This document shows, piece after piece, positions 45,814 to 46,362 of a stretch of 64,000 bases of DNA (position 1 is the stretch's first letter; each line of letters begins with the position of its first letter). Both the position numbers and the translations under genes were made by a program. Location of the stretch: assembly GCA_028288765.1 (NCBI GenBank), contig JAQGHQ010000496.1, positions 1 to 64,000 of the forward strand. The letters run 5' to 3'. The notes below the pieces were generated by a model. It worked only from the letters and a program-made list of their open reading frames with translations, had not been told where the DNA came from and did not search any database. The stretch comes from Gemmataceae bacterium. Lineage in GTDB: Bacteria; Planctomycetota; Planctomycetia; Gemmatales; Gemmataceae.

Positions 45814-46127
45814 GAGCCGGTAGCTCAGTCGGTAGAGCAGCGGACTTCAGTCGGAGTGCCCGGGCCGGGAGGTCCGAGGTAGAACCGCTCCATATGCTGG
45901 AACCCCCTGAGAGCCGTCGGTACGCACCCCGTGCGTGACAACCCGCCGGATTGGGCAATCAGCAGGAAAGACCGGCTTCGGCCGGAATCCTCAGAGACTT
46001 GACGAGCGGCTCCCGACCGGCCCCGGCCGGGGGAGATGGTAAAGTCCAGACCGCAACGGTGACGGCGGGCGAAAGCCCGTGCGGTAGGTTAATCCGCTGG
46101 TCGTGGGTTCGAGTCCCACCCGGCTCA
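45814..46127 (+). tRNA. tRNA-Lys(UUU), split by a group I intron
   Basis: The 5' exon is 45814-45847 and the 3' exon 46089-46127; joined they give exactly 73 bases. The acceptor stem GAGCCGG pairs with CCGGCTC, the D stem GCTC with GAGC, the anticodon stem GCGGA with TCCGC, and the T stem GTGGG with CCCAC around TTCGAGT. Discriminator is A, and CCA is not encoded. The anticodon loop becomes C-U-U-U-U-A-A, anticodon UUU (Lys). Without removing the insert, the loop reads CUUCA and would be misread as anticodon UCA. A promoter candidate lies upstream at 45776. Confidence 0.93.
45848..46088 (+). ncRNA. Group I intron in tRNA-Lys(UUU), 241 bases
   Basis: The intron splits the anticodon between U34 and U35. 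P1 pairs the exon end ACUU with GAGU (45854-45857) so that the splice-site U faces G, as group I introns require; the intron ends in G (46088). P7 pairs GACUU (45996-46000, in the R-like TCAGAGACTTGACGAGC) with AAGUC (46042-46046, in the S-like GATGGTAAAGTCC). A UUCG-capped hairpin (CCGGCTTCGGCCGG) is at about 45972-45985. There is no open reading frame inside, so no homing endonuclease. The layout resembles the short IC3-type introns in bacterial tRNA genes. Confidence 0.92.
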
Positions 46128-46362
46128 CTTGGTCGTGTGTACAGTAAGTGTCAGGAGATGACACCAGAGGACTAAACGCCTGGATTTCCAGCGTTTCGCT
46201 CTCCGGTGTCGTTTCCTGTCGCTTGCTGCCGGTTCCTGAATGCACCGCTTTTTGCGCCACCACTGCACCGCCCTGCACGGCCTTCTCAAAGTCGGCGGTT
46301 CACGGCGGCCCTGGAACTCGATCTCGCCCCCGGTTGCCGCCCGACGCGATCGGCGGGACCCG

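Follow-up and report, generated by a model that had tools for sequence, protein, structure and literature searches.

Introduction

Classical hosts of bacterial tRNA group I introns are the genes for tRNA-Leu(UAA), tRNA-Ile(CAU), and tRNA-Arg(CCU), and the introns of this tRNA type carry the subgroup name IC3. Published accounts also name tRNA-fMet and tRNA-Ile2 (PMC8450103) as well as tRNA-Arg-TCT and tRNA-Leu-TAA (PMC4853749) as interrupted genes. According to its authors, tRNAscan-SE 2.0 was not designed for group I introns in tRNA genes (PMC8450103), and a paper on archaeal introns judged that one general alignment cannot capture the diversity of group I introns (PMC6125680). In a review from 2014, neither Lys nor the Planctomycetes are mentioned, and all phage introns observed up to then are said to have sat in protein genes (PMC3984707). 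A cyanobacterial study claims a tRNA-Lys "group I intron" among introns of 22–49 nt (PMC5733544); it has the Lys host in common with the locus described here, but introns of that length cannot accommodate a group I core. The 45 introns of the present study measure 223–357 nt.

Here we describe an interrupted bacterial tRNA-Lys(UUU) gene. The intron is of a known kind, in a tRNA host for which the literature that we searched, mostly open-access, yielded no full-length group I intron, and an earlier report elsewhere is possible. Like the bacterial tRNA group I introns, it is small, sits in the anticodon loop, has a U-G pair at its 5′ splice site, and ends in G; two Leu(UAA)-type introns (L152, L153) even break their tRNA, as read by eye, at the same U34|35 position. 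Unlike its known counterparts, it resides in a tRNA-Lys(UUU) gene, and its P3–P6 segment is without similarity to the planctomycete fMet, CAU, and Leu introns (seven introns compared; z −1.3 to 1.4). With this locus, tRNA-Lys(UUU) joins the tRNAs in which bacterial group I introns occur, and the reason why such genes escape ARAGORN and the general Rfam model becomes apparent.

Results and Discussion

A tRNA-Lys(UUU) gene interrupted within its anticodon

The window, by which we mean the entire 64-kb stretch of DNA that was analysed, contains the following gene parts.

45814..45847, + strand: 5′ exon of tRNA-Lys(UUU), nucleotides 1–34, the last being anticodon U34 (from bases, stems, and intronless genes of relatives)
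45848..46088, + strand: group I intron of 241 nt, final base G46088 (from models, homologue alignment, and pairing)
46089..46127, + strand: 3′ exon of tRNA-Lys(UUU), beginning with U35 (from bases, stems, and intronless genes of relatives)

A first-pass annotation, made from the sequence alone, had proposed these exon borders and a joined tRNA of 73 nt with intact stems. The bases and the stem pairing bear this out: the acceptor stem forms 7/7, the D stem 4/4, the anticodon stem 5/5, and the T stem 5/5 pairs. Its assignment to tRNA-Lys(UUU) agrees with the intronless tRNA-Lys(UUU) genes of two genomes of the same genus (G004 and G001), to which the joined exons are identical at 70 of 73 positions. 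Empty insertion sites are present in genomes of this genus; in the intronless gene of G004, the two matches to the exons of the window abut exactly (34|276). The insertion point is U34|U35, inside the anticodon, and the locus resembles the anticodon-loop introns of other bacterial tRNAs in that its exons join to an intact tRNA. ARAGORN, when introns were disallowed, found no tRNA in the 64-kb window. The interrupted gene is 89% identical to its counterpart in genome G002, and, when folded, the entire gene has a minimum free energy only modestly below expectation (z −1.95). The longest open stretch, from stop to stop in any frame, measures 112 amino acids across the 45 introns and 80 amino acids in that of the window.

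Architecture and conservation of the intron core

All helices of a group I core (P3, P4, P5, P6, P7, and P8) are present in order and include the P3/P7 pseudoknot.

45854..45857, + strand: P1 internal guide strand, pairing with exon positions 45844–45847; G45854 stands opposite U34 (from pairing)
45861..45876, + strand: P2 hairpin of 5 pairs (from pairing)
45885..45890, + strand: 5′ strand of P3, partner 46004–46009 (from pairing and homologue conservation)
45895..45964, + strand: P4 (45895–45900 with 45959–45964) enclosing P5 and a two-helix extension, with one mismatch (from pairing)
45965..45990, + strand: P6 and P6a (from pairing and a covariation count)
45996..46000, + strand: 5′ strand of P7, R-like, partner 46042–46046, S-like (from pairing, conservation, and a covariation count)
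46010..46035, + strand: P8 hairpin (from pairing, conservation, and a covariation count)
46050..46085, + strand: P9.0-like helix (46050–46055 with 46080–46085) and P9 with a GAAA loop (from pairing)

The P7 pairing between R-like and S-like elements, already suggested by the first-pass annotation, reads GACUU/AAGUC and is kept in the homologues.

A covariance search had been proposed as a check of the group I assignment, and its outcome depended on the model. The general Rfam model RF00028 aligned over its full length when 341 bases around the gene were searched, with 22.5 bits (E 9e-4), which does not reach the gathering score of 50, an operational cut-off and no defining structural trait. 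On a stretch of 1401 bases the intron was absent from the RF00028 matches at E≤1, and a genome-wide search with this model missed it. Among seven relatives with the Lys intron, RF00028 matched four at E≤0.1 (29.2–46.9 bits), none of them at the cut-off. We therefore built two models from homologues: R1, based on six sequences including those of the window and of G002, and R2, based on 23 introns from which these two were excluded and whose training rows were aligned with R1. The held-out match of R2 to the window lies at 45948–46051 and scores 78.1 bits (E 7.1e-17), as compared with 8.6 bits for the runner-up location in the 64 kb.

Conservation of pairing points in the same direction. Counted in 44 of the 45 introns (L167 was excluded because its P4 lacks the anchor used), P3 forms 263 of 264 pairs, P7 220 of 220, and P8 176 of 176, whereas re-dealing the 3′ strands among the sequences gave means of 217, 198, and 158 pairs, respectively. 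Because the search motif already dictated three of the five P7 pairs, these are uninformative as a test; the last P7 pair is AU in 27, CG in 9, and UA in 7 of 43 homologues. In a count over 23 sequences, 98.7% of the cells pair, as against 27–45% after sliding by 1–3 columns, and the covariation score is 0.327 vs. 0.092 in shuffled alignments; since the introns are mutually related, the shuffles overstate significance. The R2 match and the conserved P3, P7, and P8 helices support the original reading of the insert as a group I intron. We put the probability at about 0.95 that it is a small, self-excising group I intron that lacks any reading frame of notable size, belonging to a set common in the Isosphaeraceae and patchy elsewhere.

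The anatomy of the intron and its conservation are seen directly in the sequences; its splicing chemistry we infer from the family to which it belongs, and the 241-nt RNA very probably cuts itself out. In the folded transcript, U34 would face a G in P1. A P7-bound guanosine would attack after U34, the freed U34 would in turn attack after G46088, and the exons would join to yield the UUU anticodon.

Distribution of the intron

When run over 397 genomes of the class, under filter settings at which weak matches are lost, R1 matched 56. The same-site tRNA-Lys(UUU) intron is present in 42 of the 397 genomes, so that relatives do carry it at the identical place, a point that the first-pass annotation had raised as a check. 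Both exons flank 42 of the Lys introns, which are spread over 41 genomes, a single genome having two of them; in the 42nd genome (G152), single exons stand at the ends of two contigs. The remaining 14 of the 56 matches, read by eye, fall into tRNAs for fMet, with a CAU anticodon, or for Leu(UAA), or lie near 23S rRNA; part of them could be placed only tentatively.

The intron occurs in 36 of 45 Isosphaeraceae genomes and in 24 of the 26 that are ≥90% complete and ≤5% contaminated. Nine genomes of this family have no R1 match; five of these form one genus (g85), in which 4/5 have an intact tRNA-Lys(UUU). Another planctomycete family (f4) has the intron in four genomes. Two of the six genomes of the window's own genus have it, by hand count the only two among the 95 sampled from their family (f1). 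Two cultured species, Paludisphaera soli (NZ_JAALJI010000012.1) and Tautonia sociabilis, carry the intron and lend themselves to testing the ribozyme dependence of AAA decoding.

Across the phylum, 392 sampled genomes gave seven matches: three Lys introns already counted, one intron in tRNA-Arg(UCU), one in tRNA-fMet (by eye), one inside a 23S match, and one (L189) that is probably due to chance, scoring 31.9 bits and giving no match with RF00028. Searching the named genome collection with a 23-base core pattern gave 19 stretches, 18 of them with Lys exons; among these 18 loci are two metagenome-assembled genomes labelled as Poribacteria, whose tRNA exons differ in sequence. R2 matched three of 84 genomes of the Poribacteria group, and on the third of these (L195) the exon pattern gave no match. 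A contig assigned to the Woesebacteria (L169) scored 21.2 bits and ends within the intron. Further planctomycete group I introns came to light at L187, L188, L190, and L150–L156, with Arg(UCU) (RF00028 64.1 bits), fMet, CAU, and Leu(UAA) hosts and one in a 23S match.

A second tRNA-Lys(UUU) gene in the genome of the window

The first-pass annotation had held that splicing would be essential if the interrupted gene were the only one for tRNA-Lys(UUU), and had advised looking for others. The genome of the window, as assembled, has one: another tRNA-Lys(UUU), this one intact, is predicted at C34:9376-9448 (67.0 bits). It is identical to the interrupted one at 49 of 73 positions and adjoins a second tRNA-Phe. 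Contamination is an unlikely source of this contig, given its GC content of 0.687 (0.696 for the window) and the recurrence of the Lys-Phe pair in G002 and G004. With an intact tRNA on C34, splicing need not be essential in this genome, and an essential role for it there is unsupported. AAA codons are in use close to the intron, with 9, 1, 0, and 1 of them in four genes of the window.

The picture is different among the relatives, for which the conditional claim of the first-pass annotation looks right. A strict pattern for an intact tRNA-Lys(UUU) matched 323 of the 397 genomes of the class, 320 of them among the 355 intron-free ones and three (the window's genome, G002, and G129) among the 42 with the intron, leaving 39 intron genomes in which no intact gene was found by this pattern. 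The same negative outcome was obtained for Paludisphaera soli and for the genomes that carry L159 and the two Poribacteria loci. Judged by this pattern, the intron mostly occupies the sole detectable tRNA-Lys(UUU) gene, and splicing is probably essential in those 39 genomes; given the draft state of many assemblies and the strictness of the pattern, absence is unproven for any single genome.

Large tRNA arrays were seen in some of these genomes. An Isosphaeraceae genome with the intron (G129) has an array of 20 tRNA genes that includes an extra tRNA-Lys(UUU) (L182). In the genome of the window, 24 tRNA genes lie within 2.5 kb (L074; G000:C73:45000-58000), one of them a tRNA-Lys(CUU) of unusual sequence, and smaller arrays are found on C440 and C460.

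Splice sites and alternative readings of the locus

The intact C34 tRNA, together with its tRNA-Phe neighbor and the recurrence of this pair in G002 and G004, invites the reading that the C34 gene does the work and that the window holds a dead tRNA copy whose intron has decayed and no longer splices. Every tRNA stem and every core helix of the interrupted gene is intact, however, its identity to the G002 gene is still 89%, and the same intron is kept in relatives for which the strict pattern gave no second tRNA-Lys(UUU) gene. These observations argue against decay, and we consider it very improbable.

Even more remote is the reading returned by ARAGORN when introns are allowed, namely a tRNA-Asn(GUU) whose two junctions are shifted one base upstream. 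The presence of a G at both 46087 and 46088 permits such junctions. In the 43 homologues measured, however, the final intron base is invariably G (43/43), as the first-pass annotation had noted for G46088, while all four bases occur at the penultimate position (G 21, C 10, A 9, T 3), a pattern that fixes the 3′ splice site and runs counter to the Asn call. At the 5′ side, the U-G pair that had been noted at the splice site is indeed present in P1, with U34 opposite G45854, and a script count found the GGAG guide of P1 in 41 of 43 homologues. The intronless homologues are tRNA-Lys(UUU) genes, alike at the 70 of 73 positions given above, whereas the tRNA-Asn of the window's genome is alike in only 52 of 74 aligned columns. 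We therefore rejected tRNA-Asn(GUU) and retain the reading of a group I intron in a tRNA-Lys(UUU) gene.

Descent of the intron among planctomycetes

The core of the window's intron is most similar to those of G002 (identity 0.93), of family f4 (0.81–0.95), and of L159 (0.90), followed by the Poribacteria (0.76–0.78); identity to the Isosphaeraceae cores averages 0.70 and reaches at most 0.75. An unrooted tree of 98 core columns, in which some inner nodes are without support and one stray row is included, unites f4, L159, G002, and the window (support 0.87), joins the Poribacteria to them next (0.97), and sets the Isosphaeraceae apart. That the window's core is closer to f4 and the Poribacteria than to the Isosphaeraceae suggests a horizontal arrival of the intron in the window's genus.

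A mobile neighborhood was looked for by comparing 18–20 kb of the window and of G002. Long similarity between the two is limited to the gene itself plus about 150 bases downstream, with 86% over 472 bases, a result that neither supports nor excludes descent of both introns from a common ancestor. The stretch of about 150 bases behind the tRNA (window 46128–46276) is conserved with G002; the adjoining DNA is not.

A phage-like P4–P6 half

In its P3–P6 segment, the window's intron agrees with an intron in a phage capsid gene (L203) at 89 of 109 aligned columns; the downstream exon of that gene matches the SU10 capsid family (Pfam PF17236). The similarity of this segment to the Arg(UCU) intron of the phylum is weak (z 5.2). 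R2 scores 55.5 bits on L203, on which RF00028 gives no match at E≤0.01; of seven core-bearing IMG/VR loci, RF00028 matched five, leaving L203 and L209 without a match. In IMG/VR, 42 contigs contain the 23-base core, and R2 matches 36 of them at E≤0.01 (39 matches). One of the core-bearing loci, L217, is an Isosphaeraceae-like tRNA-Lys. Judged from their flanks, the others probably interrupt protein genes; the one host tested, that of L203, is the capsid gene named above.

A profile of 35 phage P4–P6 segments matched 45/45 Lys introns, 1/103 viral and 0/6 planctomycete tRNA-type regions, and 0/1 Arg introns, an outcome that is favored by the choice of the phages through Lys-intron patterns. A 29-segment profile of phage P5, from which the core and the P4 strand were omitted, matched 38/45 Lys introns and none of the same other sets (0/103, 0/6, 0/1), and it reached at most 4.2 bits on 225 shuffled introns; on the window's intron it gave 8.7 bits (E 0.086), which is not significant alone. 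The resemblance of P4–P6 to other tRNA introns that is expected of subgroup IC3 was not found in comparison with planctomycete and viral tRNA-type introns.

The other half of the intron differs in this respect. While P3–P6 is like that of the phage protein-gene intron L203, the P7–P8 and P9 segments show no similarity to such introns (17 loci; z −1.4 to 1.4). The P9 side has a tRNA-type layout, with z 2.4–6.9 in seven pairs, but a P9 profile of the tRNA type matched only 2/45 Lys introns and 0/35 phage introns, giving 10.2 bits (E 0.013) for the window.

Taken together, the segment identities and the phage profiles make it likely that the P4–P6 half shares ancestry with phage introns, with either direction of transfer. 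They also make it possible, though we hold it to be rather unlikely, that the intron is a mosaic, in which a U34|35 tRNA intron lineage took over, or was founded by, a phage P4–P6 and then became nearly fixed in the sole tRNA-Lys(UUU) of the Isosphaeraceae. The evidence carries this full claim only halfway, the P5 profile finding 38 of the 45 introns and the window's own falling short of significance. If the mosaic is true, a bacterial family relies on a phage-derived ribozyme for reading AAA codons, and in any case the phage-like core makes the origin of tRNA introns amenable to sequence comparison.

Collections of plasmids and phages yielded no match to the intron at E 1e-5. The best phage match at E≤10 was to an unannotated stretch of Acinetobacter phage YMC13/03/R2096 (KM672662.1, 21043–21114; 74% over 45% of the core query, E 3e-4). 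A viral scan for the neighboring PhyH protein confirmed nothing.

A pattern for tRNA-type intron ends occurs in at least 120 viral contigs of IMG/VR (L238–L357), some of which may be host DNA. Among the matches listed (123), a tRNA T-arm follows in 79; the junctions are most frequently Leu(UAA)-like (51), with CAU (7) and Arg-like (5) ones as well. Two viral contigs (L323, L355) carry, at the same U34|U35 site of a tRNA-Lys(UUU), a tRNA-type intron of 181 nt, which is unusually small for a group I intron.
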